From Acidimicrobiaceae bacterium (GTDB lineage Bacteria > Actinomycetota > Acidimicrobiia > Acidimicrobiales > RAAP-2), in NCBI GenBank assembly GCA_003161575.1, contig PMOE01000072.1, positions 107,573 through 171,572 of the forward strand: a DNA stretch of 64,000 nucleotides. Reading direction: 5' to 3'. A program made the position numbers and the translations under genes. This document shows positions 4,460-30,006 of this stretch, one piece after another. Each line of letters begins with the position of its first letter. The first letter of the stretch is position 1. Under the pieces are notes generated by a model. That model worked only from the letters and a program-made list of their open reading frames with translations, searched no databases and was not told the origin of the DNA.

Positions 4460-4590
4460 TACGAATCGGTCGAGCGCTTTGCCTTACGACGGGGCTTGAG
4501 AGCGAACCACCAGATGCTGGCCATCGTGCCCAGCACCCCGACGGCCGCCGCCACCGGCTTGATCAACGTGCGCTTCCCGCTCTTTGCCAT
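4459..4590 (-). CDS. Small single-pass membrane protein (43 aa)
   Basis: A short reading frame starting MAKSGKRTLIKPVAAAVGV, containing one hydrophobic segment (about residues 11-31, with a WWF end) flanked by basic residues on both sides and ending in a Lys/Arg-rich tail (KPRRKAKRSTDS). This layout is typical of small bitopic membrane proteins, often annotated in actinobacteria as DUF4235-like or hypothetical. An AAGG stretch lies about 10 nt before the ATG. It is convergent with the sirtuin and lies downstream of the SDR start on the opposite side. No function can be assigned; a chance frame is possible but the basic-hydrophobic-basic pattern argues against it. Confidence 0.5.
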   Translation of the reverse strand: MAKSGKRTLIKPVAAAVGVLGTMASIWWFALKPRRKAKRSTDS

Positions 4591-4634
4591 GGGCGTGGAC
4601 CTTACTGCGCCGCGGCGTGGGCCGAACCTCGACG

Positions 4635-5483
4635 TCAGCCGTCGTGGGCCCCCGGTGGCTGCATCGGTACCCGTAGGCGCACCTGGGATACCGGATGCTC
4701 ACCGAAGGCGAGCTCGAGGAGGCGTTCGGCCACCCACGAGGGGGAGTTGAAAGCCTCGGCCTCTTTTAAGGCCCGGAAGCGGCGTACTTGTGGGAATGCG
4801 GACTCGTCGGTGGCCCGGATTCTCGCCTGCATGTCGGTGTCGATGACCCCCGGTGCAACCGCATAGGGCCGGAGCCCGTTCGCCCGCTCTTCGAGGGCGA
4901 CGGCCTCGGTCAATCGATCGACGGCGGCCTTGGCCCCGCAGTAGGCGGCCCACCCGGCATACGGACGCGACCCAGCCCCCGACGAGACGTTGATCAGTAC
5001 GCCTTCGCCGGGCCGCGACCGAACATGACGGGCGAAGATCATGGTGCCGAAGAGAATGCCGGTCACGTTGACCTCGATGTGCCGGGCGACCTGATCGGGC
5101 GCCGCCTCGGCGATCGCCCCGATCGGTTCGAGGACACCGGCGTTGTTGACCCACAGATCGATCCGGCCGAAGCGCTGGATCACGGCGTCACTGAACGCGT
5201 CGAGGGCGTCGAAGTCGACCACGTCGACCGATGCCACCAACGGGGTCTCGGGCGGATCAATCCGCCCGTCGTGGGCCCGCGGCCTGGTCTTGGCGACAAG
5301 ATCAGGCCGGTGCCGGGCACAAAGCCCGAGGTGCAGCCCGACCGAGGCGAAGTGGGCAGCCATCCCCGCCCCGAGACCCCGGCTGGCCCCGGTAATAACT
5401 GCGACTCGGCCCGAGAGGACCGACCGACGGGCGGCCGCGGTGGAAAAGGGGGCGACGAGTGGCCAGCGCTCGTCGCTCACCAT
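4635..5483 (-). CDS. SDR-family oxidoreductase
   Basis: A 282-residue classical short-chain dehydrogenase/reductase. The Rossmann glycine motif TGASRGLG is near residue 31, NNAG near 113, the catalytic Ser in VSSGAGS and the YCGAK (YxxxK) pair near 180. An N-terminal extension of ~25 residues precedes the Rossmann fold. It should use NAD(P)H to interconvert an alcohol and a ketone, substrate unknown. It is the last of three same-strand genes (B12-binding protein, PuuD-like hydrolase, SDR), 27 nt after the hydrolase, so it is probably co-transcribed with them. Confidence 0.88.
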   Translation of the reverse strand: MVSDERWPLVAPFSTAAARRSVLSGRVAVITGASRGLGAGMAAHFASVGLHLGLCARHRPDLVAKTRPRAHDGRIDPPETPLVASVDVVDFDALDAFSDAVIQRFGRIDLWVNNAGVLEPIGAIAEAAPDQVARHIEVNVTGILFGTMIFARHVRSRPGEGVLINVSSGAGSRPYAGWAAYCGAKAAVDRLTEAVALEERANGLRPYAVAPGVIDTDMQARIRATDESAFPQVRRFRALKEAEAFNSPSWVAERLLELAFGEHPVSQVRLRVPMQPPGAHDG

Positions 5484-5510
5484 CGGCGCGGGCGGGCTGT
5501 CATCGAAGAT

Positions 5511-6257
5511 TCAGGGCCGGCTGGCGCTCATCAGCGCATCGAACAACCGGCGGTCGCCGGACTCTTCCGGGTGCCACTGGACGCCGAGGACGAAGGGTGC
5601 ACCGTCGAGCTCCACCGCCTCAATGATCCCGTCGGTGCCCACGGGGCCGGAGCGCTCGACCGACCGGGCCGACACCACCAGGCCCTTCCCGAGTTCCCCA
5701 ATGGCCTGGTGATGCGAACAGCGCACCGTGTCGGTCTCCCCCATAATCGTCGCCAGCGCGGTGCCGGGCACCGTCACGATGTCGATGTCGCCGAAGGCTC
5801 CCGCCGCCGGCTGATGCCCGGTGTGACCGACCATGTCGGGCACGTGCTGAACCAGGGTCCCCCCAAGGTGCACGTTGAGCACCTGGAGCCCCCGGCAGAT
5901 GGCCAGCACCGGGAGCTCGGCGTCGAGAGCGGCCGCTACCAGTGCCAGTTCGGACTGGTCACGAGCCCCGTCGACCCCCCCAAGCTGTGAGTGGGCTGGC
6001 TCGCCGTACGACTCCGGGTCGATGTCGCCGCCGCCGACCACCACGAGCGCGTCGAGAGCATCAATCGCCTCGAGGGCACCAACGCCAGGCCCTGCGAGCG
6101 ACGAACGTACGGGCGGGATCAGAAGCGTTCGCCCACCCGCCGCGGCGACCAGTTCGACATAGGGGGCGGGCACGACGAACGCCGGGCAGTGCCAAGGGCC
6201 CCACGACGCCTCGGCGTAGTAGGTGGTCACCCCGACCAGCGGAGCTGACCGGGTCAT
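5511..6257 (-). CDS. Gamma-glutamyl-GABA hydrolase family protein (PuuD-like, class I glutamine amidotransferase fold)
   Basis: A 248-residue peptidase C26 / PuuD-type hydrolase. The nucleophile elbow [17 protein letters not shown] carries the catalytic Cys, and QWHPEES carries the His-Glu pair near residue 230. [14 protein letters not shown] is the conserved early loop of PuuD proteins. PuuD cleaves gamma-glutamyl-GABA to Glu and GABA in the gamma-glutamylated putrescine pathway. The divergent neighbour at 6759 encodes a glutamine-synthetase-like gamma-glutamyl ligase, the enzyme type that starts that pathway, which strengthens the call. Its ATG overlaps the stop of the upstream B12-binding gene by 4 nt (ATGA), indicating translational coupling. 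Confidence 0.88.
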
Positions 6258-6679
6258 GACACCCCCATGGCCCGGTCCATCGCGGCGACCACTTGGAGCT
6301 CGGAGGCGCCGGGGTTCAGCACTTCACGCACCCCCATCGCCTCGAGGATCGGCACATCGCGGGCGGGGATGATGCCACCCAGCACGACAGGGATGTCGAG
6401 TCCACGCTGACGCAACGCGGCGACGACGGCCGGAGCAAGGGTGAGGTGGCCCCCTGAATGCATCGACAACCCGACCACGTCGACATCTTCTTGGAGAGCG
6501 GCGGTGGCGACGGTCTCGGGGGTCTGGCGCAGCCCCAGGTACACGACCTCGAAGCCCGCGTCGCGCAGCATGCGGGCGACGACCTTGACTCCCCGGTCGT
6601 GCCCGTCGAGACCGACTTTGGCCACGACCACCCGGCCTTTGGTGACAACGCCACCAGAATCGAAGCGCTCGGAGGTCAC
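6254..6679 (-). CDS. Stand-alone cobalamin-binding domain protein (methylmalonyl-CoA mutase small-domain type)
   Basis: A 141-residue protein consisting of a single B12-binding Rossmann-like domain. The base-off cobalamin motif DGHDRG (DxHxxG) is near residue 27, SMHSGGH in the middle and GGIIP later, as in the C-terminal domain of methylmalonyl-CoA mutase or small subunits of isobutyryl/ethylmalonyl-CoA mutases. No catalytic mutase subunit is present in the window, so the partner must lie elsewhere. GTG 6679 was chosen because TACGCT ends 6 nt upstream (leaderless pattern) and the residues before it do not resemble the family. It overlaps the PuuD-like gene by ATGA and is divergent from the glutamine-synthetase-like gene. 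Confidence 0.85.
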
Positions 6680-6685
6680 ACCACC

Positions 6686-6691
6686 AGCGTA
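6686..6691 (-). promoter_or_regulatory. -10 element of leaderless B12-binding/PuuD/SDR operon
   Basis: TACGCT on the minus strand ends 6 nt before the GTG at 6679. It would drive the three-gene operon down to 4635. Confidence 0.5.
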
Positions 6692-6758
6692 GTGAGGGGT
6701 TTCGGGCGGTGGGCGTGGCGTTGGACGCTGCGACCGGAAAAAAGCAATAGTTCGAACC

Positions 6759-8117
6759 ATGCCGGACCTGGAAAGCTTGCGCCAGAACATTGCCGATGGA
6801 TCGATCGACACCGTGGTGCTGGCCTTCCCTGATCTCCAAGGCCGACCGGTCGGCAAGAGAGTCACTGGTCCCTTCTTCCTCGAGCACGTCCAAGCCCACG
6901 GGATCGAGGCGTGCGACTACCTGCTCGCCGTCGACGTGGACATGGAGCCACTTCCGGGTTACGAGTTCACGAACTGGGACTCGGGCTATGGCGACGTGGC
7001 CGCACTGCCCGACTACGCCACCACAATGGTCCTGCCCTGGCTCGAGGGCACAGCCATTGTGCTGTGCGACGTCCAGGATCTCTCTGGTGCACCCATCGAG
7101 GTCTCGCCCCGGCGGATCTTGCGGCGACAGATCGAGCGGGCGGCCGAGCGCGGGTTGCGGGTGCGCTGCGCGACCGAGCTCGAGTTCTACCTGTTTCGCG
7201 ACACCTTCGAGGAGGCGTCGAACAAGAGGTGGAACGGGCTGGTACCCCATACGAGCACCATCGAGGACTATCAGCTGCTCCAGACCTCACGCGAGGAGTA
7301 CGTCCTACGCCGCATCCGAAACGAAATGGTGGCCGCCGGGATCCCCGTCGAGTTCTCCAAGGGTGAGGCGGGACGTGGACAGCACGAGGTCAATGTCACC
7401 TACGCCGAACCGCTCCTCACCGCCGATCGCCATCTGGTGTTCAAAAACGGTGTGAAGGAGATCGCGTCCCAAGAGGGCCGGGCGGCCACCTTCATGGCCA
7501 AGTGGTCGATGGACGAAGTGGGGTCGTCGTGCCATCTGCACACCAGTCTGTGGGGACTGGAGGACGACGCTCCCCTCATGGGTGACGCCGACGCCCCGGG
7601 GCAACTTTCTGCGACCGGCCGGCACTTCGTGGCCGGCCAGATCCACGCGGCGCGGCAGCTCGCCTGGTGCTTCGCCCCGTATGTCAACTCGTACAAGCGT
7701 TACGTTCCGGGCAGCTGGGCCCCGACGGCCGCGGTGTGGGGAGAGGACAACCGGACCTGTGGCTTCAGGGTGATTGGCCACGGCGCCAGCCGACGCGTCG
7801 AGAGCAGGGTGCCCGGCGGCGACGTCAACCCTTACATCGCGCTGGCGGCCGCCATCGCGGCCGGGCTCTACGGTATCGACCACGCCCTCGAGCTGGGGGA
7901 GCCGTTCGTCGGCAACGCCTACGTGGCCGAGGACGTGCCCCGCATCCCCTCCACCTTGGCCGAGGCCTTGGCCGAACTCGAACACAGCGAGGTAGCCGAG
8001 GAGGCGTTCGGCCATGACGTCCACCAGCACTTCACGAACACAGCCCGCCAGGAGTGGCTGGCCGCCAACCGCGTCGTGACCGACTGGGAGCTGGCCCGCA
8101 ACTTCGAGCGAATCTGA
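6759..8117 (+). CDS. Glutamine-synthetase family protein, probable gamma-glutamyl-amine ligase (PuuA/GlnA3-like)
   Basis: A 452-residue GS-fold ligase. Metal and glutamate-binding motifs are intact: ELEFYLF (near 130), the [12 protein letters not shown] segment (near 203), [10 protein letters not shown] (near 252) and [17 protein letters not shown] near 350. The N-terminal segment is closer to PuuA and the streptomycete GlnA3/GlnA4 group, which gamma-glutamylate polyamines or ethanolamine, than to ammonia-using GlnA. The divergent PuuD-like hydrolase supports a role in polyamine or amine use. An AATAGT hexamer ends 7 nt before the ATG, so the mRNA may be leaderless. Substrate amine is inferred, not shown. 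Confidence 0.87.
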
Positions 8118-8150
8118 GCGGGCCGGGGTCAAGCACCACGAGCGGCGGGT

Positions 8151-8165
8151 GGCCCTGAATGGGCC
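8151..8165. terminator. Small GC hairpin between convergent genes
   Basis: GGCCC / GGGCC 5-bp stem with a 5-nt loop between the stops at 8117 and 8174. Weak, without a T-run. Confidence 0.25.
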
Positions 8166-8173
8166 GGCCGCGC

Positions 8174-8821
8174 TCAGCGTTCGACATCGATGCCACGACC
8201 GGTGATCTCTTGGGCTTCGAGCACGAGGTAGTGGTCGTCGCCGCCGCCGGGCCAGGGTGAAACACCAACGTCCCGCAATTTCTCGAGCTCCGCCTCATCT
8301 GTCGGTCGGCGAACCCGTCCGGTGAGCAGCACGCTCCAGCCCGACGAAGAGGCCTCATCGAGCTGGTCGATCTCGAGGCCGACCGGCTCCTGGCCGTCGA
8401 GGTGATCGAAATGGCTCCCCGACTCGGTCCGAAAGACGATCGCCCGATCAACGGTGCGAAAGTTGACCGGTAGGGCCGTGGGGCCACGCTCGCTGTCGAA
8501 GACCAGGCGGGCGACGCCGCCGGGACCGATGAGACGCCAGCACTCGTCCTCGGAGATCTCCGAGGTGGACGGCGATTCCCCCGCGCCGCCGGCGCCCGAG
8601 GGGCGGTCCATTTCGGTCCCGAAAAGGTAGGCGGACGTCGTCTCGAGCCCGGCCGCCAACTTCAAGATTGCCCGGGCGTCGGGCATCGCGACCGGGCTCG
8701 TCTCGAGGTGGCGCAGATACGGAACCGCCGTACCGGTGCGTTTGGAGAGGTCCTCGAGGCTCAAGCCGAGTTCCTCCCGCCGTCGGGTGAGCCTGCGTCC
8801 GAAGGCTCCGGGGTTAGCCAT
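8174..8821 (-). CDS. XRE helix-turn-helix regulator fused to a pyridoxamine-5'-phosphate-oxidase-like domain
   Basis: A 215-residue two-domain protein. Residues ~7-65 form an XRE/Cro HTH (FGRRLTRRREELGLSLEDLSKRTG, then YLRHLE). Residues ~95-210 form a split-barrel flavin/PNPOx-like domain (ECWRLIGPGGVARLVFDSERGP, then ALPVNF and FRTESGSH). In related actinobacterial proteins the barrel is thought to bind a flavin or F420-type ligand and tune DNA binding, which is inference here. It overlaps the upstream sugar-kinase gene by 8 nt on the same strand and probably shares its transcript, so the kinase operon may be its target. Confidence 0.83.
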   Translation of the reverse strand: MANPGAFGRRLTRRREELGLSLEDLSKRTGTAVPYLRHLETSPVAMPDARAILKLAAGLETTSAYLFGTEMDRPSGAGGAGESPSTSEISEDECWRLIGPGGVARLVFDSERGPTALPVNFRTVDRAIVFRTESGSHFDHLDGQEPVGLEIDQLDEASSSGWSVLLTGRVRRPTDEAELEKLRDVGVSPWPGGGDDHYLVLEAQEITGRGIDVER

Positions 8822-20149: not shown

Positions 20150-21838
20150 GTGACCACGGTGGCTCGGATGCTCGCGGCGCGTGCCGAGGACGACTCGGCC
20201 GCCGTTCTCGACACCACCGGAACGTGGACCTGGCGGAGTGCGGTCGCCGAGGGTGCCGCCCGCGGGGCGCTCGCCCGCGGCCTCCAACGCCCGGGTCCGT
20301 TCCACATCGGCGTGCTCTTGCCCAATGGCCCTGAGTACTTGTTCTGGCTGAACGGGGCGGCGCTGGCCGGGGCGACCGTGGTCGGACTCAACCCGACCCG
20401 TCGGGGCGAAGCGTTGGGCGCAGACGTCCGAGCCACCGACTGCCAGCTCTTGGTGACCGATCCCGATGGGGCGATGCTGCTCGCCGACCTCGACCTCGAT
20501 CTCGACGAAGAGCGGGTGCTGGTGATCGGCACGCTGGACTACGCGACACGGCTGGCGGCGGTTGCGGCCAACGCTGCGGCCGGCCTCGTGACAGCGGCCG
20601 CCGGGATCCCCGAGGACCAGCTCTTCTTGTTGCTGTTCACCTCGGGGACGACGGGGACGCCCAAGGCCGTCCGCTGCACCCAGGGCCGGCTGGCCGGCAT
20701 CGCCGAGGTCGCCGCCCCCGGCTACGGCTACACCCAGAGCAGCGTCTGCTACTGCCCCATGCCCTTGTTCCACGGCAACGCGCTGATGGCGCTGTGGGGT
20801 CCGGCTGTGATGGTGGGCGCCGCCATCGCGGTACGCCCGCGGTTCAGTGCGTCAGCATTCATCGACGACGTGCGACGATACGGGGCCACGACGTTCAGCT
20901 ATGTCGGCAAAGCCATCGCCTACATCCTGGCCACTCCCGAGCAGCCCGACGACGCGGACAACACGCTGGTCAGCGCATTCGGCACCGAGGCGTCGGCGCG
21001 TGACCGGGCGCGTTTCCAAGAGCGGTTCGGTTGTTATCTGATCGAAGGGTACGGACAGAGCGAGGGCGGCGCAGCCATCAATCCGGTGCGCGGCATGCCC
21101 AAGGGGGCCTTGGGCCGCCCGGTGCAAGGCGCCGATCTGGCCGTGGTCGACCCGGTGTCGGGCGACGAATGCCCACCAGCACGTTTTGACCAAGAAGGAC
21201 GGCTCTTGAACGCCGGAGAGGCGACCGGGGAGATCGTCAACCGGAGCGGGCCGGGAAAGTTCGAGGGCTATTACGGTGCACCAGAAGCCGAGGAGGAGCG
21301 GACCCGCGACGGGTGGTACTGGACGGGCGACCTGGCCTACCGCGACGCAGAGGGCTACTTCTATTTCGCCGGGCGTCGCGGGGACTGGCTGCGGGTGGAC
21401 TCGGAGAACTTCGCCGCGGGCCCGGTCGAATCGCTCCTTTCGCGCTACCCCGCCATCTCGGTGTGCGCCGTCTATGGCGTACCCGACACCCGTTCGGGCG
21501 ACCAGGTCATGACGGCGCTCGAGCTCGCGCCGGGCGCCGAGTTCGACCCCGTCGACTTCGCCAACTGGCTGGACACGCAGCCCGATCTCGGCACCAAATG
21601 GGCGCCCCGCTTCGTCCGGGTGACCGCGTATCTCCCCCAGACCGCGACCGGCAAGGTGACCAAAGTCGACCTCCGTCGTGAGGCCTGGGAGTGCGACGAC
21701 CCGGTGTGGTGGCGGCCCGGGCGCGACCCGGCGGGGGACGCTCGCGCCGGGGGATACCGCCCACTCACCGACGACGACCGCTCCGGATTGGCTGCCGAAC
21801 TGGCCGAGCACGGCCGGTCCGATGTGCTCGGTGCCTGA
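20150..21838 (+). CDS. AMP-dependent long-chain acyl-CoA ligase (FadD-like)
   Basis: A complete 562-residue ANL-family ligase. The P-loop LFTSGTTGTPKAVRC is near 165, YGQSEGG near 302, TGDLAYRDAEGYFYFAGRRG near 390, the hinge after it, and the catalytic Lys in TATGKVTKVDLRRE near 495. The overall pattern is closest to mycobacterial FadD1/FadD17-like very-long-chain or steroid-acid ligases. It starts 16 nt after the frameshifted dehydrogenase and is followed by a VOC protein, so the three probably form an operon. Confidence 0.9.
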   Translation: MTTVARMLAARAEDDSAAVLDTTGTWTWRSAVAEGAARGALARGLQRPGPFHIGVLLPNGPEYLFWLNGAALAGATVVGLNPTRRGEALGADVRATDCQLLVTDPDGAMLLADLDLDLDEERVLVIGTLDYATRLAAVAANAAAGLVTAAAGIPEDQLFLLLFTSGTTGTPKAVRCTQGRLAGIAEVAAPGYGYTQSSVCYCPMPLFHGNALMALWGPAVMVGAAIAVRPRFSASAFIDDVRRYGATTFSYVGKAIAYILATPEQPDDADNTLVSAFGTEASARDRARFQERFGCYLIEGYGQSEGGAAINPVRGMPKGALGRPVQGADLAVVDPVSGDECPPARFDQEGRLLNAGEATGEIVNRSGPGKFEGYYGAPEAEEERTRDGWYWTGDLAYRDAEGYFYFAGRRGDWLRVDSENFAAGPVESLLSRYPAISVCAVYGVPDTRSGDQVMTALELAPGAEFDPVDFANWLDTQPDLGTKWAPRFVRVTAYLPQTATGKVTKVDLRREAWECDDPVWWRPGRDPAGDARAGGYRPLTDDDRSGLAAELAEHGRSDVLGA

Positions 21839-22365: not shown

Positions 22366-22441
22366 CCTCGTGCCGTCTGGTGTCTCGGTCGCTACGTTGA
22401 CCGAGCGCACGAGGGTCGGCGATCGGTGGGGACCACCGATC
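22366..22441. terminator. Nested hairpins between convergent genes
   Basis: An outer 8-bp stem (CCTCGTGC 22366-22373 with 22407-22414) encloses an inner 7-bp stem (CTCGGTC 22384-22390 with 22399-22405). A further 9-bp hairpin (GATCGGTGG 22421-22429 with 22433-22441, 3-nt loop) reaches the stop of the acyl-CoA dehydrogenase gene. It probably terminates transcription from both sides. Confidence 0.55.
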
Positions 22442-23567
22442 AGTCGAGGACGGCGACCGCCACTCGCTGCTCCAAGGCCCGGGTGTCCCACCAGCTGATC
22501 TGCAGCTGCTTGGCCCGGCGGAAGTAGAGCTGGATGTCGAACTCGAGGGTGAACCCAATGCCCCCGAAGATCTGCTGGGCCATGGCCGTCACGTCGCGGA
22601 AGGTCTGACAGGCGAACAATTTGGCCATCGGGGCCAGCCGTTCGGTCGGTCGGTCGTTGGCCCGGGCCCAGGCGGCCTCATGCACCAGGTGCTCGGCCCC
22701 GTCGACCGCGGTGACCGCATCGGCGAGGTAGTGGGCGAGGGCCTGGAAGGCCCCGAGCGGCTTGTCGAACTGCTCACGGTCCTTCGCGTATTGGACGGTG
22801 ATGTCGAGCGCGTAGCGGGCACCGCCGACCGCCTGTGCAGCGAGCAAGATGACCGCGTCACTCATGATTTCGTCCCAGGTGGCCCAGCCGGTGCCCGCCC
22901 CCCCGATGCGATCCGCCTCGCTCACCACCACATCGGTGAAGCCGACGTGATATTGGGTGTCCGAGCCTATGGTGAACTGCTGGGCCATCGAGACCCCGGG
23001 CGCGGCCGGGTCGACCAGGAACAGGTCCACCGCCGAAGGACCGTCACCGGTGCGGGCGAGGACGACCAGCCGGTCGGCGGCCTTCGCGAACGCCACATGC
23101 CGCTTCGTGCCGTTGATGACGACGCCCTCGCGGCCCGCCGTTGCACGGGTCTGGACCCCCCGTGGCCCGAAGCCACCGTCGGGCTCGAGCCATGCCGGGG
23201 TGAAGACAGCCTCGCCCGAGCCCAACTTGGCCAGCCACCCCGCCTGCTGCTCGTCGCTACCGGCCAGGGCCAACCCCCCGGCACACAACACCGCGCTGAC
23301 CAAGTGCGGCACCGGGGCGAGCGCCCGGCCCAGCTCCTCGTAGAGGGCGACCCCTTCCACCAGGGTCATGCCCGAACCACCGAAGGACTCGGGCACCAAC
23401 AGCCCGATCAGGTCGAGCTTGCCCAACTGGCCCCACAACTCGGCGGGGTACCCGACGGGGTCGTCCTCCATCGCGCGCACGACGGCGAGCGGGCAGTGCC
23501 GCTCGAGTACGTCGCGGACCGTTTGGCGCAGCATCTCCTGCTCAGGACTGAAGTCGAGGTCCAACAC
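22440..23567 (-). CDS. Acyl-CoA dehydrogenase, alpha-like subunit of a two-gene pair
   Basis: A 375-residue acyl-CoA dehydrogenase-fold protein, FAD-linked, making enoyl-CoA. FSPEQEMLRQTVRDVLER opens it, DREQFDKPLGAFQALAHYLAD is the conserved Arg-Glu-Gln helix, and GGIGFTLEFDIQLYFRRAKQ is the C-terminal FAD-contact segment. The usual C-terminal YEGT(S/N) catalytic-Glu loop is not evident. Together with the second dehydrogenase of the operon (25871) this suggests an alpha2beta2 heterotetramer as in FadE28-FadE29/ChsE-type enzymes, where the active site is shared. It is the last gene of the five-gene operon. Confidence 0.87.
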   Translation of the reverse strand: MLDLDFSPEQEMLRQTVRDVLERHCPLAVVRAMEDDPVGYPAELWGQLGKLDLIGLLVPESFGGSGMTLVEGVALYEELGRALAPVPHLVSAVLCAGGLALAGSDEQQAGWLAKLGSGEAVFTPAWLEPDGGFGPRGVQTRATAGREGVVINGTKRHVAFAKAADRLVVLARTGDGPSAVDLFLVDPAAPGVSMAQQFTIGSDTQYHVGFTDVVVSEADRIGGAGTGWATWDEIMSDAVILLAAQAVGGARYALDITVQYAKDREQFDKPLGAFQALAHYLADAVTAVDGAEHLVHEAAWARANDRPTERLAPMAKLFACQTFRDVTAMAQQIFGGIGFTLEFDIQLYFRRAKQLQISWWDTRALEQRVAVAVLD

Positions 23568-23615
23568 GTCAGTTCACCTCCGGTTCGTCGGCCGCGGCAC
23601 TGCGGCACAGCGTGC

Positions 23616-24101
23616 TCATGGTCGCCACTGGTCGCCCCGCCGGGCCCAAGGATTGTCATCGGTCGTCTGCGGAACGGCGACGCGGACGGCGCACGCTGTC
23701 TTCACATCGCCGTCAACCGCGAGCTCGATAGCCGCGCTCACCCAAGCGCAGCCCGCCTCGTCAACCTCGGTACCCTCCACGGTCCCGCACATCACCATCG
23801 TGTCGCCGGGGAACACCGAGCCCTTCATGGAGAAGGTCACCCGCCCGAGGCGGCCGTGGGGCCCGGTCCAATCGGTCACGTAGCGTTCGAACCAGGCGGC
23901 CTGGTTCGGTGTGTTGAGAAAGATGTCGCGGGTTCCGTTGCGATGCACCGCGAAGTCCTTGTCGTGGTGCATGGGTCGCCAGTCCCGGCTGGCCAGCGCG
24001 CCAAGGACGACGGTGCTCGCCGTGACGTCGTAACGGAGCTCGGGAAGGCGGTCACCGACCGCCACGCGGTCGTAAAGCAGACGGGGGGCGGGTCCGCTCA
24101 C
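23616..24101 (-). CDS. MaoC-like enoyl-CoA hydratase subunit (catalytic)
   Basis: A 161-residue hot-dog-fold protein. The hydratase-2 motif is recognisable as ASRDWRPMHHDKDFA (Asp and His catalytic residues). FLNTPNQAAWFERYVTDW and FSMKGSVFPGD are typical of the steroid-type ChsH1/MaoC partners. It probably hydrates an enoyl-CoA together with the upstream-encoded FAS1-dehydratase-like subunit, whose stop codon overlaps its start (ATGA). Confidence 0.83.
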   Translation of the reverse strand: MSGPAPRLLYDRVAVGDRLPELRYDVTASTVVLGALASRDWRPMHHDKDFAVHRNGTRDIFLNTPNQAAWFERYVTDWTGPHGRLGRVTFSMKGSVFPGDTMVMCGTVEGTEVDEAGCAWVSAAIELAVDGDVKTACAVRVAVPQTTDDNPWARRGDQWRP

Positions 24102-24661
24102 GAGGCCGCCCGCCGGTACCCGAAACCGGTGTAGGACTCGACTCCCACGAGTCCGCCCTCTTGATTGTGGTACACGACCTCGATCACCCAGAAGCGTCCG
24201 GTGCCGAGCTTGGTGGTCTTCTCGTCGCTCACCGACCGCAGCACCTGGTGGGTGTGCAACCGGTCGCCCGGTCGCACCGGGTCATAGAAGGTGATGGTGT
24301 TTTCGGTCATGACCGCCTCGGGCAACTCCAGCAGGGCCTTCAGATCGAAGTGCACCTGCAGCGGCAGGGCCGCCTCGGTCCGGCCCGGAGCCCAGTGGTG
24401 GGGTCGGAACCAGACCGAGAGCATCGTCGGTGGTGCGATGGGCCCGTTTGTGAGATCGGCTGCCGCCTCGTCGTCCCAAAAGAGCGGGTTCGCGTTCTCG
24501 ACCGACGAGCAGGTTGTCCAGATATAGCCGCGCTCGACGGGAAACTCGCCCTCCTCGGGGTACTGCTCGCCGCCGATCAGGCTCCGAGCTGCGGCCACCG
24601 GGTCGCCGGCCTGGTCGGCCAGCGCCGCCCGGAGCGCCCCGGACAACCCGGCCCCGGTCAC
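24098..24661 (-). CDS. FAS1-type dehydratase / MaoC N-terminal-like hydratase subunit
   Basis: A 187-residue hot-dog protein of the FAS1-like dehydratase domain group: VENANPLFWDDEAAADL, APPTMLSVWF, VMTENTITFYDPVRPGDRL. It lacks the DxxPxH catalytic motif, matching the non-catalytic CoA-binding half of heterodimeric ChsH-type hydratases. GTG 24661 was chosen because it overlaps the preceding CoA-transferase stop as GTGA and has a GGAG-like site; the longer version would need a TTG. Both junctions of this gene overlap by 4 nt, so operon coupling is tight. Confidence 0.8.
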   Translation of the reverse strand: MTGAGLSGALRAALADQAGDPVAAARSLIGGEQYPEEGEFPVERGYIWTTCSSVENANPLFWDDEAAADLTNGPIAPPTMLSVWFRPHHWAPGRTEAALPLQVHFDLKALLELPEAVMTENTITFYDPVRPGDRLHTHQVLRSVSDEKTTKLGTGRFWVIEVVYHNQEGGLVGVESYTGFGYRRAAS

Positions 24662-25863
24662 GCCACCGCTCCCGCGCTGCGCCAACCATCGATGGTGGCC
24701 GAGTCCACTCCGGCGGCCACCAGCCGCCGGTCGGTATCGGTGACCGACGGGTCGGGAAGGGCGATCGGAGCTATCGGTCGTGCCATACCGGCCAAGAGCG
24801 GACCCAACTGGCGGAAACGCCCCTCGGTCGGGTGCACCGCCTCGATGACCACCCCCCGGTGGACGAACTGCTCGTCGCTCGCCACTTCGGCGGCGGTCAG
24901 CACCGGGGCCACACAGGTGTCGGTGCCCGAGAGCTCGGCCATCCAGTCGTCGCGCCGCCGGGTGGCAAATACCTCGGCGAAGTCGGCCCGGATCCGGTCT
25001 TGCACGGCGTCGTCCAGCTGGTGGTCTATCCAGCGGTCACACCCGAGCGCCCGACAGAGGTTGGCGAAGAACTTGTGTTCGATGGCCCCGACGGCCAGCC
25101 ACCGCCCGTCGGCGGCCCGGTAGGCGTCGTAGCAGGCGTAGCGACCGGTCAAGATGTCATGGCCCGGACCCGGATCGGTGCCCGTCGCGAGGTGCTCGTC
25201 GATGGTGAGGGACATGAGCCACAGCACCCCGTCGGCCACGGAGACATCGAGGTAGGCGCCTTCGCCGGTCTTTTGGCGCCCGGTCAGGGCGGCGGTGATG
25301 GCCAGGGCGGCTTGCATCCCCCCCGCCGCCGCGTCGGCCACCGTCGCCCCGGGCAACGGGGGACCACCGTCGCTCCGGGGCCCGCTCGTGGCCAGGAACC
25401 CCCCCACGCCGAGATAGTCGACGTCGTGGCCGGCCCAGCCGGCGTGGGGCCCGGTCTGGCCATACCCGCTGGTCGAGCAGTAGACCACCGCCGGGTTGGC
25501 GGCGCGCACGGCCTCGTAGCCGATACCCAGGCGATCGGCCACACCCGGACGGAAGCTCTCCACCACCACGTCGGCCCGGGCGGCCAGGGTCAAGAAGGCC
25601 TCGAGACCAGCGGGGTCCTTCAGGTCCAGCAGCACGCGCGACATGCCCCGGTGCCCGCTGTACGCGAAAAACGCCGGCTCGATCTGCACGCCACTGTCGG
25701 AGGGCACCGGCCCGACCTTCACCACGTCGGCGCCGTAGTCAGCCAACAACCGGGTACAGCGGGCCGCCGGACCGACGCTCGCGAGGTCAAGGACCGTCAC
25801 TCCGGCGAGCGGTCCGGCAGGCGGGGGCCCGGTCGTCGGACCGGTATGGGTCTTTGCCGACAT
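24658..25863 (-). CDS. CaiB/BaiF-family CoA-transferase
   Basis: A 401-residue family III CoA-transferase. GVTVLDLASVGPAARCTRLLADYGADVVKV opens it (the middle is the nucleotide/CoA-binding region), VVESFRPGVADRLGIGYE follows, and STSGYGQTGPHAG lies just upstream of the conserved aspartate segment GHDVDYLGVGG. The family moves CoA between acids, or racemises alpha-methylacyl-CoA; the latter (AMACR-like) fits a branched or steroid side chain. ATG 25863 has TGAGG close upstream and lies 7 nt after the acyl-CoA dehydrogenase stop. Confidence 0.87.
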   Translation of the reverse strand: MSAKTHTGPTTGPPPAGPLAGVTVLDLASVGPAARCTRLLADYGADVVKVGPVPSDSGVQIEPAFFAYSGHRGMSRVLLDLKDPAGLEAFLTLAARADVVVESFRPGVADRLGIGYEAVRAANPAVVYCSTSGYGQTGPHAGWAGHDVDYLGVGGFLATSGPRSDGGPPLPGATVADAAAGGMQAALAITAALTGRQKTGEGAYLDVSVADGVLWLMSLTIDEHLATGTDPGPGHDILTGRYACYDAYRAADGRWLAVGAIEHKFFANLCRALGCDRWIDHQLDDAVQDRIRADFAEVFATRRRDDWMAELSGTDTCVAPVLTAAEVASDEQFVHRGVVIEAVHPTEGRFRQLGPLLAGMARPIAPIALPDPSVTDTDRRLVAAGVDSATIDGWRSAGAVA

Positions 25864-25870
25864 GGCGTCC

Positions 25871-27052
25871 TCAGAAGTTCTTCGGAAGGCCGAGCTTGCG
25901 GCGGGCGATGATGTTCTTCTGGATCTCCGACGCGCCACCCCCGATGGTGTCGATCACGGTGTAGCGGTAGGTGGACTCGGCCCGGCCAGCCATCGGGGCA
26001 TCGGGGGTCTTGACCCGGAGCTGGGTGCCGGGCCCGGCGATGTCCATCGACGCATCGGCCACCCGTTTGGACAATTCGGTCGCGAAGAGCTTGTACTCAG
26101 AGGCTTCCGACGTCGGCGCGGCGCCGCCTTTTGCTGACTCGAAGACGAACCGCAGGCCCATCACCCGAGCCACTTCGGCCTCGGTCGACAACTGTGCGAT
26201 GCGCTGGCGGATTACCTGGTCGTCGCGAAGCGGTTCGCCGTCTCGGGTCGTCGTCTTTACGTACTCGATGAGGAGTTCGAGTCGTTGGGCGATGGGTGAG
26301 AACGTGAACATGGTGAAGCGCTCGAGGTCGAGTGCTTCGGAGATGTACTGGAAGCCCCGGTTGAGCTCACCGACCACGTAGTCGTCAGGGACGAACACGT
26401 CGTCGAGATAAACCTCGTTGGTCCGTTCGTCGCCCATGGTCCAGATGGCGTTGATCGTGATGCCCGGCTGGTCGAGAGGAACGAGGAACAACGTGATGCC
26501 GAAGTGCTTCTGAGCGTCAGGGTCCGTGCGGGCGCCGACCCAGTACCACTCCGCGAAGTGAGCCGACGTTGTCCAGGTCTTCTGCCCGTTGAGCGTCCAC
26601 CCGCCGTCGACCTTGGTCGCCTTCAGCTGCATGGAGGCGGCGTCCGAGCCGGCATTGGGTTCGGAATACCCAACGGCGAATTCGACCTCGTTGCGCAGGA
26701 TCTTGGGCAGGAACTCGGCCTTGAGCTTGTCGTTTCCGTGGCGGATCAGGGTCTTGCCGATGATGCCGACCCCCTTGCCGATCTGGGGGCCGCCGCGCCG
26801 CGCCAGCTGCTCATTCAACAAGTACTCGTAGACCCCTTCGCCCTCCTTGCCCCCGTACTGGGTGGGCCAGGTCATCCCCAGCCAGCCCTGCTGGCCCATC
26901 TCGGCCATGAAGGACCGCCGAGCGGGGGTGTCGACGATCTGGGCCATGTTCTCCCGGGTGACGTCAAAGACATCGGGGTCGTCGTGGGCGTCGAGGAAGC
27001 TCTCCACCTCCTTGACGAAGGCGGTCTGCTCAGGCGAGAACTCGAAGTCCAT
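25871..27052 (-). CDS. Acyl-CoA dehydrogenase, beta-like subunit (first operon gene)
   Basis: A 393-residue acyl-CoA dehydrogenase. MDFEFSPEQTAFVKEVESFL opens it, GYSEPNAGSDAASMQLKA and TWTTSAHFAEW are flavin-site segments, and IDTIGGGASEIQKNIIARR is the C-terminal loop typical of FadE29/ChsE-like subunits. GGAGG lies 8 nt before the ATG. The promoter region is shared with the divergent ketosynthase-OB fusion and holds a palindromic operator. This gene leads the five-gene operon 27052-22440. Confidence 0.9.
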   Translation of the reverse strand: MDFEFSPEQTAFVKEVESFLDAHDDPDVFDVTRENMAQIVDTPARRSFMAEMGQQGWLGMTWPTQYGGKEGEGVYEYLLNEQLARRGGPQIGKGVGIIGKTLIRHGNDKLKAEFLPKILRNEVEFAVGYSEPNAGSDAASMQLKATKVDGGWTLNGQKTWTTSAHFAEWYWVGARTDPDAQKHFGITLFLVPLDQPGITINAIWTMGDERTNEVYLDDVFVPDDYVVGELNRGFQYISEALDLERFTMFTFSPIAQRLELLIEYVKTTTRDGEPLRDDQVIRQRIAQLSTEAEVARVMGLRFVFESAKGGAAPTSEASEYKLFATELSKRVADASMDIAGPGTQLRVKTPDAPMAGRAESTYRYTVIDTIGGGASEIQKNIIARRKLGLPKNF

Positions 27053-27114: not shown

Positions 27115-27303
27115 TCGAACGGTCATCATAGGGTCGGTTTCGTCGGGTGGGCGACTGCCCGGCACGCCTCGCCGGCCGCCATCGGGTCGCAACAAGGGTT
27201 CTCGCCGCGATTCGGGTCTGCCCGCGGCCGCCGCCCGCGGCCGAACGGCCCCGGACGCCAGACGCACCGGCCCCTCGACTCGCCGCCCAGGCGGGCCCGC
27301 CTC

Positions 27304-27353: not shown

Positions 27354-28814
27354 GTGCGTGGAATCGTGGGTGCCGCCGGCTACGTTCCCTACCGGCGCTT
27401 GGAGCGGGCCCAGATCGCGTCCTTTCTCGGCTCCGGTGGGGGCAAAGGGACGAGGGCGGTGGCCTCCCACGACGAGGACACCACCACCATGGGTACCGAG
27501 GCGGCCCGCCTGGCGCTGCGCGGAGCCCCCGGGTCCGCCCCCGACGTGGTGTGGTTCGCCACCGCCAGCCCGGCCTACCTCGACAAGACCAACGCCACCG
27601 CCGTCCACGCGGCCCTCCGGCTGCCAAACGAGGTCCCGGCCTTCGACTTCGGTGGCGCGCTCCGCTCGGGTACCGGGGCCCTCGCCGCGGCGCTTTGTGC
27701 CGGCGGGATCGGGACGGCGCTGGTCGTCTCGGCCGACCAGCGCGACGGTCTGCCGACGAGCAGCGACGAAGCGGCCGGCGGCGACGCCGGGGCGGCCCTG
27801 ATCGTCGCCGACGACGGCCCGGGCGCGCCGGTGGTGGCCGAGTTTTTGGGAGGCGGGTCGGCGACCGACGAGTTCACCGACCGCTGGCGGACCCCGGGCG
27901 AACAGCGCTCGAGGGTTTGGGAGGAGCGCTTTGGTGAGACCCGCTACGTGCCACTAGGCCTGGAGGCCTGGGCCCGGGCGCTGAAGACCACCGGCATCGA
28001 CGCCTCGAGCGTCGCTCGCGTCGCGGTGACCGGGATGCACGCCCGCGCCGTCAAGGCGCTGGCCGGCAAGCTCGGCGTGGCCGAGGGCGCGTTGGCCGAC
28101 GACCTGTCGGCCTCGGTCGGCCAGGCGGGCGCCGCCCACCCGGCCCTTGTTCTCACCGCATTGTTAGAGGACGAGGCCCGCAGCCAGGCGGCCGGCGAGG
28201 TGCCCGCCGGCCGGGTGCTAGCCCTGATCCACTTGGCCGACGGCGCCGACGTGACGGTGTTGCGGACGACCAGCGCACTCGCCGACTGGCGGCCGGCCCG
28301 GCCGGTCGCCGCCCAAGTGGCGGACGGGGCCGCACTCCCCTACGGCAAGTACCTCAGCTGGCGGGGCCTTCTCGAGCTCGAACCGCCGCGGCGGCCCGAA
28401 CCCCCCCGGGTGTCGTCCTCGGCGGCGTGGCGCAGCGAGGATTGGAAGTTCGGCTTCGTCGGCTCGAAGGACCGCTCGAGCGGTGCCGTCCATCTGCCGC
28501 CGGCCCGGATATCGATGAAGGGCGGGGCGTTCGACGAGATGGACCCGGTCCCCCTGGCCGACGCCACCGGCACCGTGGTCACCTTCACCGTCGACCGGAT
28601 GGCCTATTCACCGAGCCCGCCGATCGTCTTCGCTGTCGTCGACTTCGACGGCGGTGGCCGCTTCCCGATCGAGCTGACCGACGTCGACGCCGACGCCATC
28701 GCCATGGGCGACCGGGTGGAAATGACCTTCCGCCGGCTCTTCACCTCTGATGGGATTCACGACTACTTCTGGAAGGCCAAGCCGGTGCGCGCCGGCTCGA
28801 AGGCAGGAGGCTGA
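27354..28814 (+). CDS. HMG-CoA-synthase/ketosynthase-III-like protein fused to an OB-fold (DUF35) domain; active-site residues missing
   Basis: A 486-residue fusion. Residues ~1-330 have the thiolase/HMG-CoA-synthase-like fold (GIVGAAGYVPYRRLERAQI; ATASPAYLDKTNATAVHAAL; ALVVSADQRDG). Residues ~345-480 form a DUF35 OB-fold (ATGTVVTFTVDRMAYSPSPP, then VVDFDGGGRFPIELTD). Where the nucleophilic Cys normally stands (A-C-x-S-G) the sequence reads FDFGGALRSGTGAL, with Leu. The DUF35 zinc ribbon (CxxC pairs) reads GSKDRSSGAVHLPPARI, with no Cys. It is probably a non-catalytic scaffold for the thiolase encoded 1 nt downstream, comparable to archaeal thiolase-HMGCS-DUF35 complexes and Ltp2-DUF35 aldolases. 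GTG 27354 has TACGAT 7 nt upstream. Confidence 0.8.
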   Translation: MRGIVGAAGYVPYRRLERAQIASFLGSGGGKGTRAVASHDEDTTTMGTEAARLALRGAPGSAPDVVWFATASPAYLDKTNATAVHAALRLPNEVPAFDFGGALRSGTGALAAALCAGGIGTALVVSADQRDGLPTSSDEAAGGDAGAALIVADDGPGAPVVAEFLGGGSATDEFTDRWRTPGEQRSRVWEERFGETRYVPLGLEAWARALKTTGIDASSVARVAVTGMHARAVKALAGKLGVAEGALADDLSASVGQAGAAHPALVLTALLEDEARSQAAGEVPAGRVLALIHLADGADVTVLRTTSALADWRPARPVAAQVADGAALPYGKYLSWRGLLELEPPRRPEPPRVSSSAAWRSEDWKFGFVGSKDRSSGAVHLPPARISMKGGAFDEMDPVPLADATGTVVTFTVDRMAYSPSPPIVFAVVDFDGGGRFPIELTDVDADAIAMGDRVEMTFRRLFTSDGIHDYFWKAKPVRAGSKAGG

Positions 28815-28815
28815 C

Positions 28816-30006
28816 ATGGGATCGCACGGGATCCGCGACCAGGTGGCCATCGTCGGCATGGGCTGCACCAATTTCGGCGAGCAGTGGGACCAGGGCCTCG
28901 ACGATCTGATCCTCGACGCCACCGGTCAGACCTTCAACTCGAGCGGCATTGCCAAGGGCGACGTCGACGCCTTTTGGATCGGCACCGCCCAAAGCGGGAT
29001 GAGCGGCATCACCCTGGCTCGCCCGCTCCAGCTCGAGGGTAAGCCGGTCACGAGGGTCGAGAACTATTGCGCGACCGGGTCCGAGGCACTGCGGGCCGCC
29101 GCCTACGCCGTGGCCTCGGGTGCCTACGACGTAGCCATGGCGGTCGGCGCCGAAAAGGTGAAGGACAGCGGCTATCAAGGGCTCAACGCCAACAATCCTC
29201 CCGGCGACGGGACAGCAAGGACCTTGACCGCGGCCGCCATGTTCTCGATGGTTGCTCCGGCCTACGGGGCGAAATACGGCGTGGACGAAGACCAGATGAC
29301 CGACGTGTTGGCCACCATCTCGGCCAAGAACCACTACAACGGAGCCCGCAACCCGCGAGCCCAGTTCCGCCGCGAGGTGTCCAAAGAGACGATCTGCGCC
29401 TCGCCGCGGGTGGCGGGACGGCTCGGGGTGTTTGACTGCGCCGGCGTGGCCGACGGTGCGGCTGCTGCGATCGTGGTGCGGGCCGAAGATGCCCACCGCT
29501 ACACCGACAAGCCGATCTACATCAAGGCGCTGTCGTTTGCCGCAGGGAGCGGCTCGGGCCTGATCGATCCCGACTACGACTACACGCACTTCCCCGAGTG
29601 CGAGCTGGCGGCCCGGGACGCCTACGCCCAGGCTGGAATCACCGACCCGCGGCACCAACTGGCCTTCGCCGAGGTCCATGACTGCTTCACCCCGACCGAG
29701 CTGGTCCTCATGGAGGATCTCGGGTTCGCCGAGCGAGGCACGGCGTGGAAAGAGGTGCTGGCGGGCACGTTCGCCCTCGACGGCGAGCTACCGATCAACC
29801 CCGACGGCGGGCTCAAGAGCTTCGGCCACCCGGTCGGCGCCTCGGGCCTGCGGATGTTCTTCGAGTGCTGGCTGCAATTGCGAGGCGAAGCCACCCCTGA
29901 ACGCCAGCTACACAGTGAGCGGACCCTCGCTCTTACTCACAACCTGGGTGGGTATCCCGGCGAGATGGTCTCGTTCGTCTCGGTGGTGGGCTCCGAGCTC
30001 GACTGA
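28816..30006 (+). CDS. SCP2-type thiolase / acetyl-CoA acetyltransferase (Ltp2-like)
   Basis: A 396-residue thiolase with a complete active site: the nucleophile in VENYCATGSEALRA near residue 82, HDCFTPTELV near 290 and GHPVGASG near 335. It resembles lipid-transfer-protein/SCPx-type thiolases, which cleave 3-ketoacyl-CoA, or perform retro-aldol release when paired with a DUF35 protein. AGGAGG lies 5 nt before the ATG, partly inside the end of the preceding gene, and only 1 nt separates the stop and start. The fused OB-fold domain next door is the likely partner. Confidence 0.88.
   Translation: MGSHGIRDQVAIVGMGCTNFGEQWDQGLDDLILDATGQTFNSSGIAKGDVDAFWIGTAQSGMSGITLARPLQLEGKPVTRVENYCATGSEALRAAAYAVASGAYDVAMAVGAEKVKDSGYQGLNANNPPGDGTARTLTAAAMFSMVAPAYGAKYGVDEDQMTDVLATISAKNHYNGARNPRAQFRREVSKETICASPRVAGRLGVFDCAGVADGAAAAIVVRAEDAHRYTDKPIYIKALSFAAGSGSGLIDPDYDYTHFPECELAARDAYAQAGITDPRHQLAFAEVHDCFTPTELVLMEDLGFAERGTAWKEVLAGTFALDGELPINPDGGLKSFGHPVGASGLRMFFECWLQLRGEATPERQLHSERTLALTHNLGGYPGEMVSFVSVVGSELD

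Follow-up and report, generated by a model that had tools for sequence, protein, structure and literature searches.

A fused HMG-CoA-synthase-like and DUF35 protein lacking nucleophile and zinc cysteines is encoded beside an intact thiolase in Acidimicrobiia

Two adjacent genes of an Acidimicrobiaceae bacterium encode a protein that joins an HMG-CoA synthase (HMGCS)-like domain to a DUF35 OB-fold domain, and a thiolase with intact active-site motifs. The fusion protein lacks the nucleophile cysteine and the catalytic glutamate of the HMGCS-like domain, as well as the zinc-binding cysteines of DUF35. Judged by sequence, the contrast between an active site that is lost throughout the family and one that is strictly kept by the neighbor in the same operon goes far beyond chance. 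The most fitting reading of the pair is a remodeled version of a known type of complex, in which an inactive part would hold and shape an active one, and the fusion is probably the inert, obligate partner of a heteromeric thiolase. That a dead HMGCS-like subunit can be required alongside an active thiolase and a bridging DUF35 protein has already been established for PhlA in the PhlACB complex. What is new here is a fusion that is obligate and widespread, together with a concerted, clade-specific loss of zinc.

The fusion protein and its partner thiolase

Positions refer to the window, the whole stretch of 64,000 nucleotides that was analyzed (Table 1). The fusion gene begins with a GTG codon and ends with a TGA codon at 28812-28814. 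A GTG at 27147 is a possible earlier start, but 27354 is favored because the alignment of relatives begins at residue 1. The thiolase gene, with an ATG start at 28816, follows after 1 nt, which agrees with the spacing given in the initial annotation.

The N-terminal domain of the fusion is, by its sequence, clearly related to HMGCS and FabH enzymes, although it misses all cut-offs of these families (98.7 bits against 244 for the NCBIfam HMG-CoA synthase NF003274, and 65.3 bits against 353 for TIGR00748). Its nearest relatives by both sequence and structure are the archaeal HMGCS of 6ESQ and PhlA (5M3K_A, E=5.7e-10 in sequence comparison). Foldseek assigns it a thiolase/ketosynthase fold (6ET9_I, E=6e-24), and 6ET9_I/6ESQ_I is also the best structural match of the fusion, with a TM score of 0.87 normalized by target. 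The Pfam OB_ChsH2_C/DUF35 match spans residues 399-460 and lies above the cut-off. The AlphaFold model of the window fusion, ribbon included, has a mean pLDDT of 95.5 and a pTM of 0.94. Pfam, sequence and fold matches agree on the architecture first proposed, an HMGCS/KAS III-like domain and a DUF35 OB-fold in one protein.

The partner thiolase belongs to the PRK06157 family of SCP2/archaeal type, by its family score and by its Cys, HDCF and GHP motifs, the last of which reads GH(338)PVG and contributes His338. Its best match in the PDB by sequence is 6ESQ_A, and 4YZO, SCP2-thiolases, BbsB and PhlC are also matched. The Cys-His-Cys motifs, already noted in the first reading of the sequence, correspond to Cys85, His288 and Cys290. 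They are kept across 102 related thiolases: HDCF is present in 102/102, and the search pattern leaves one row unmatched for the Cys motif and two rows for GHPxG.

Table 1 Features of the fusion, the partner thiolase and the neighboring genes in the window
Feature	Position	Strand	Basis
AMP-dependent ligase	20150-21838		best NCBIfam match steroid-22-oyl-CoA synthetase, 719.6 bits, below cut-off of 900
Conserved divergent five-gene block	22440..27052	-	gene order alongside the pair in many Acidimicrobiia; family matches
Second ACAD	22440-23567	-	family match
MaoC/HadA-HadB-like hydratase, second of two	23616-24101	-	family match
MaoC/HadA-HadB-like hydratase, first of two	24098-24685	-	family match
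CaiB-type CoA-transferase	24658-25938	-	family match
ACAD	25871-27052	-	family match
HMGCS/KASIII-like + DUF35 OB-fold fusion protein, 486 aa	27354..28814	+	ORF, profile/sequence comparison, AlphaFold
Putatively inactive HMG-CoA-synthase-like domain, residues 1-340	27354..28373	+	phmmer 6ESQ_I, E=5.8e-12; Foldseek
Ala71, catalytic Glu position of archaeal HMGCS (PhlA Cys83)	27564..27566	+	alignment to 6ESQ and PhlA
Leu103, nucleophile Cys position (PhlA Gly115)	27660..27662	+	alignment to 6ESQ and PhlA; Cys in 0/103 fusions
Former zinc ribbon of DUF35, residues 358-398; Cys4 replaced by Asp373, Ser376, Ser387, Gly390	28425..28547	+	alignment of relatives
OB-fold PF01796 OB_ChsH2_C/DUF35, residues 399-480	28548..28793	+	Pfam, 50 bits, cut-off 27.1
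Intact SCP2/archaeal-type thiolase, PRK06157 family, 396 aa	28816..30006	+	NF004810, 591 bits against cut-off of 403; 6ESQ_A, 1.5e-53
Thiolase nucleophile Cys85, motif ENYC(85)ATGS	29068..29070	+	sequence; kept in relatives
Thiolase His288-Asp-Cys290-Phe motif, H(288)DC(290)F	29677..29688	+	sequence; relatives

Lost catalytic and zinc-ligand residues

The nucleophile cysteine of 6ESQ aligns with Leu103 of the window fusion, as the initial annotation had read it, and Ala71 occupies the glutamate position, so that neither of the two residues expected of an HMG-CoA synthase or KAS III enzyme is present. Leucine is only one of several replacements. None of 103 fusions has Cys in the nucleophile column, where the residues are mostly hydrophobic and include Leu, Val, Ala, Ile, Thr, Gln and Pro. 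In the glutamate column, Thr, Ala, Val, Pro and Ser occur along with a single Cys, and Glu is absent throughout. No substitute cysteine has taken over the site. Cys115 is the single cysteine of the whole window fusion, and in an alignment of 85 close relatives the sole column with Cys in at least ten rows is 444, located in the OB domain (14 rows). With a lone Cys115 and a ketosynthase domain devoid of recurring cysteine columns, another cysteine as nucleophile was ruled out, and with it the first of the two findings that the initial annotation had named as refuting it.

Even in the absence of Cys and Glu, the ketosynthase domain might still bind or process a compound. That it performs a different reaction, such as decarboxylation without Cys, hydrolysis or acyl transfer, would be in line with a domain that is whole and under purifying selection, and with His229, which is present in 63/103 fusions. 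We nevertheless consider this unlikely, since neither Cys nor Glu has a consistent polar replacement, related fusions carry Asp, Asn, Tyr, Ser or Phe in place of His229, and the equivalent subunit of PhlACB plays no part in acyl transfer. We give close to an even chance to a refinement of the inert-partner explanation, according to which the HMGCS-like domain is more than a scaffold: it would bind acyl-CoA or product, determine substrate length and specificity, and be indispensable for each turnover. The loop near the former active site is constrained (Asp98 in 95/103 fusions, Arg or Lys at position 104 in 94/103) while the nucleophile position varies, the CoA site of the archaeal complex is formed by all three proteins, and the cavity of PhlACB is lined by all three. 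The conserved residues of the loop may, however, be purely structural.

The zinc-ribbon cysteines are replaced as well, in keeping with the first reading, and the window fusion retains 0/4 of the Cys4 set that characterizes two-domain DUF35 proteins. The ribbon is an all-or-none feature: the Cys set is present in 43/103 fusions, no ribbon cysteine remains in 60/103, and there are no intermediates. The zinc-free form is concentrated in Acidimicrobiia. On a tree built by a quick method without the ribbon columns, in which the long rows L170 and L177 are uncertain, the zinc state changes three times. Ribbon dN/dS is roughly 0.02-0.03 in two close zinc-free pairs, which indicates that the metal-free ribbon is maintained and not in decay. 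Substitute metal ligands were considered for the ribbon; the positions are filled mainly by Asp, Ser/Thr, Ser and small residues, which we judge unlikely to bind zinc. The DUF35 homologs of thiolase-like complexes compared previously have four cysteines in all cases but Shy, which has a Cys3His1 site (PMC12329534). A wholly metal-free DUF35 clade therefore appears to be undescribed in the literature searched.

The combined loss of catalytic and zinc residues resembles, at first sight, the decay of a gene. A sequence error, a decaying pseudogene or a chance annotation is, however, so improbable as to be negligible, and is refuted by the comparative data: the frames are intact in scores of genomes, the same residues are lost everywhere, and the gene is linked to an intact thiolase. 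Overall dN/dS is about 0.13-0.16 in close pairs unsaturated at synonymous sites, which corresponds to purifying selection; the ratios come from the pairs L022/L024, L144/L142 and L067/L069 only, most others being saturated.

Distribution of the fused pair and order of the losses

The pair is not a single case: matches occur in 91/198 genomes drawn from the order (E<=1e-20) and in 58/397 genomes of the phylum draw (E<=1e-8). Fused pairs are frequent throughout Actinomycetota and are also carried by proteobacterial and haloarchaeal plasmids. The plasmid relatives include those of Rhodococcus DK17, R. opacus PD630, Mycobacterium avium, Variovorax, Novosphingobium, Sphingobium and Haloferax mediterranei; the Rhodococcus DK17 protein WP_029538842.1 is a Cys4 form. 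Where the fetched locus extends 900 nt or more beyond the fusion, a thiolase follows directly in 142/142 cases, a partly redundant set, and the junctions are mostly overlaps or gaps of a few nucleotides. The HMGCS-like and DUF35 parts form one polypeptide in the window and its relatives, and not the separate genes of a PhlACB-type three-gene set. The plasmid relatives carry the labels 'OB-fold domain-containing protein', 'zinc ribbon domain-containing protein' or '3-oxoacyl-ACP synthase III C-terminal domain', or are called hypothetical. Among the loci that were read, the nearby genes are of acyl-CoA dehydrogenase, CoA-transferase, ring-hydroxylating dioxygenase, enoyl-CoA hydratase or SDR type. 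No description of the fused family was found in the literature searched, which is weak evidence given that most subscription journals were outside its reach.

In Halosegnis rubeus (4821-7542 of locus L110), an HMGCS-like gene, a DUF35 gene and an intact thiolase gene stand unfused in a row. The HMGCS-like protein has Ala at the nucleophile position, and the DUF35 gene keeps both CxxC pairs. This unfused set, together with the Cys4 fusions, indicates that catalysis was lost without fusion, and that fusion occurred without loss of zinc. The character states, taken without a rooted tree, suggest that catalytic loss came first, followed by fusion and then by zinc loss.

The fused relative on plasmid pHME505 of Haloferax mediterranei (4826-8595 of locus L177) has one thiolase directly upstream on the same strand and another downstream on the opposite strand, an arrangement that differs from the bacterial gene order. 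The window genome contains a second fusion of a dead ketosynthase and DUF35 (G000 C85:18751-20163; 4521-6230 of locus L111), which is 31% identical to the window fusion. The Cys4 ribbon of this second fusion (L111/L014 pair) is intact, and its own downstream thiolase is 38% identical to that of the window. The same genome has 17 DUF35/OB_ChsH2_C places in 3.5 Mb, many of them adjoining thiolase-like ORFs. Extra N-terminal domains were considered for L157 (1624-4986, 1121 aa) and L158 (1573-5061, 1163 aa), where the fusion lies at the C-terminal end of a longer frame. The upstream parts have no Pfam match, and the frames are taken as open frames of GC-rich DNA.

Predicted assembly, known complexes and likely role

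The arrangement of fusion and thiolase was modeled on locus L051, a relative of the window pair (70%/86% identical), in which the fusion stop codon and the thiolase lie in one frame and the stop was read as Gly. The chain is thus tethered with 1:1 stoichiometry, and its alignment comprised 20 tandem rows and unpaired rows. The AlphaFold model of 897 residues has a mean pLDDT of 93.7 and a pTM of 0.90, with a disordered linker at residues 473-498. By our own estimate, a pTM of about 0.5 is expected for two unplaced bodies of about 470 and 390 residues. The relative placement is therefore predicted with confidence despite the disordered linker, and the fusion and thiolase are predicted to form an interface. 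On the second refuting condition of the initial annotation, the lack of such an interface, the outcome for this tethered chain thus favors the annotation. For a physical hetero-oligomer bridged by DUF35, the evidence is this tethered chain of a relative's sequence. The initial annotation had called the fusion a merged non-catalytic scaffold. The merger stands, as a dead HMGCS-like partner and a DUF35 bridge share one polypeptide with a defined predicted arrangement relative to the thiolase, but the term scaffold goes further than this, and the shaping of a CoA/substrate tunnel fits equally well.

PhlACB (PpATase/CsATase; PDB 5M3K, 9SKH), a Friedel-Crafts C-acyltransferase of Pseudomonas and Chromobacterium, is among the best fold matches and, like the window pair, combines a dead HMGCS-like subunit, a DUF35 bridge and a cysteine thiolase. 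By sequence criteria, the window pair shares with it an inactive HMGCS-like partner beside an active thiolase. The dead partner is not new in kind, contrary to what was first implied: the unfused haloarchaeal relative lacks the nucleophile, as does PhlA, which has Gly115 and Cys83 at the Cys and Glu positions, and acyl transfer involves residues of PhlC alone (PMC6392133). All three PhlACB subunits are needed for activity, with the chemistry located in PhlC (PMC6392133, PMC12955522). In the work on the SSO2064 structure, PhlA had been described by the authors as an inactive member of the thiolase superfamily, and fusions of DUF35 with domains of this superfamily were pointed out (PMC2954200). 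PhlACB differs from the window pair in consisting of three separate proteins, in keeping the Cys4 zinc site of DUF35, and in catalyzing biosynthetic acyl transfer to phenols; PhlC is only about 25% identical to the modeled thiolase. The archaeal thiolase-HMGCS-DUF35 complex (6ESQ) has the same three folds and provides the best PDB sequence match of the thiolase and the best fold match of the HMGCS-like domain. However, its HMGCS is catalytic (Cys114 and Glu82; numbering from PMC6392133), its subunits are separate, and its DUF35 binds zinc. MucABC of Streptococcus macacae (PDB 9VBO, 9VBT) is a multi-component acyltransferase with HMGCS-like and thiolase-like chains, the former a fold match, but its subunits are separate and act in a natural-product pathway. 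The benzoylsuccinyl-CoA thiolase BbsAB (PDB 7PXP) is degradative, has a DUF35 partner, and its thiolase is a fold match. BbsAB is not known to have an HMGCS-like domain.

In the steroid side-chain aldolases Ltp2-ChsH2 and Sal-Shy, as is probable here, a thiolase fold is held by DUF35 fused to another enzyme domain. In these enzymes, however, the thiolase fold has a YDxF/Y motif, DUF35 is fused to MaoC hydratases, and zinc is kept (C4 or C3H1). Divergently from the window pair runs the block ACAD, CaiB, MaoC, MaoC, ACAD, a gene order that recurs next to the pair in numerous Acidimicrobiia from soil and peat; a different subset of loci has homologs of the AMP ligase upstream. Having its ACADs and its hydratases in pairs, the block is reminiscent of modules for steroid side chains. 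With the AMP ligase and the absence of a hydroxyacyl-CoA dehydrogenase alongside, these genes recall operons in which a thiolase homolog of Ltp2/Sal type acts as a retro-aldolase after MaoC hydratases, with DUF35 placed as in ChsH2-Ltp2. The likeness to Ltp2, drawn in the initial annotation, does not extend to the chemistry. A retro-aldolase is very unlikely here, as the window thiolase has Cys85 and, like its relatives, HDCF in place of Tyr-Asp-His/Cys-Phe/Tyr. TcLtp2 and CtSal depend on the Tyr of the latter motif.

We hypothesize that the two genes encode a hetero-oligomeric thiolase, in which the thiolase subunit would perform the Claisen cleavage or condensation of a 3-oxoacyl-CoA using Cys85/Cys290, His288 and His338; the direction of the reaction and the substrate class are deduced. 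The fusion would be the non-catalytic partner. Its HMGCS-like half, dead at Cys and Glu, would pack against the thiolase as PhlA does against PhlC, and its OB-fold half would bridge the two and line the CoA/acyl tunnel. Fusion would lock the ratio of HMGCS-like domain to DUF35 at 1:1, and in Acidimicrobiia the ribbon, normally stapled by zinc, would have been rebuilt in a metal-free form. The divergent block and the AMP ligase favor a role in CoA-thioester catabolism, in which a bulky CoA thioester is degraded and thiolysis ends the process; a steroid as the substrate is a guess. The pair may thus catalyze the last step of a beta-oxidation-like round together with the ACAD pair, the hydratase pair and the CoA-transferase. 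Against a full round of this kind, the immediate block of the window contains no 3-hydroxyacyl-CoA dehydrogenase.

Thiolases are usually taken as self-sufficient, but here a broad family, including degradation-type clusters of Rhodococcus, mycobacteria and sphingomonads, pairs an intact thiolase with a nucleophile-less ketosynthase. We tentatively propose, at somewhat less than even confidence, that these are widespread, undescribed heteromeric catabolic thiolases in which a permanently inactive HMGCS-like domain and DUF35 form an essential substrate- or CoA-gating subunit, with the structural zinc site swapped for a metal-free ribbon in one bacterial class, all or none. The automatic labels 'acetyl-CoA acetyltransferase', 'OB-fold domain-containing protein' and 'hydroxymethylglutaryl-CoA synthase' are corrected for many genes. 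The role of the inactive half in such complexes, a question raised by PhlA, becomes testable, and the all-or-none loss of zinc offers natural pairs for probing the role of zinc in DUF35.
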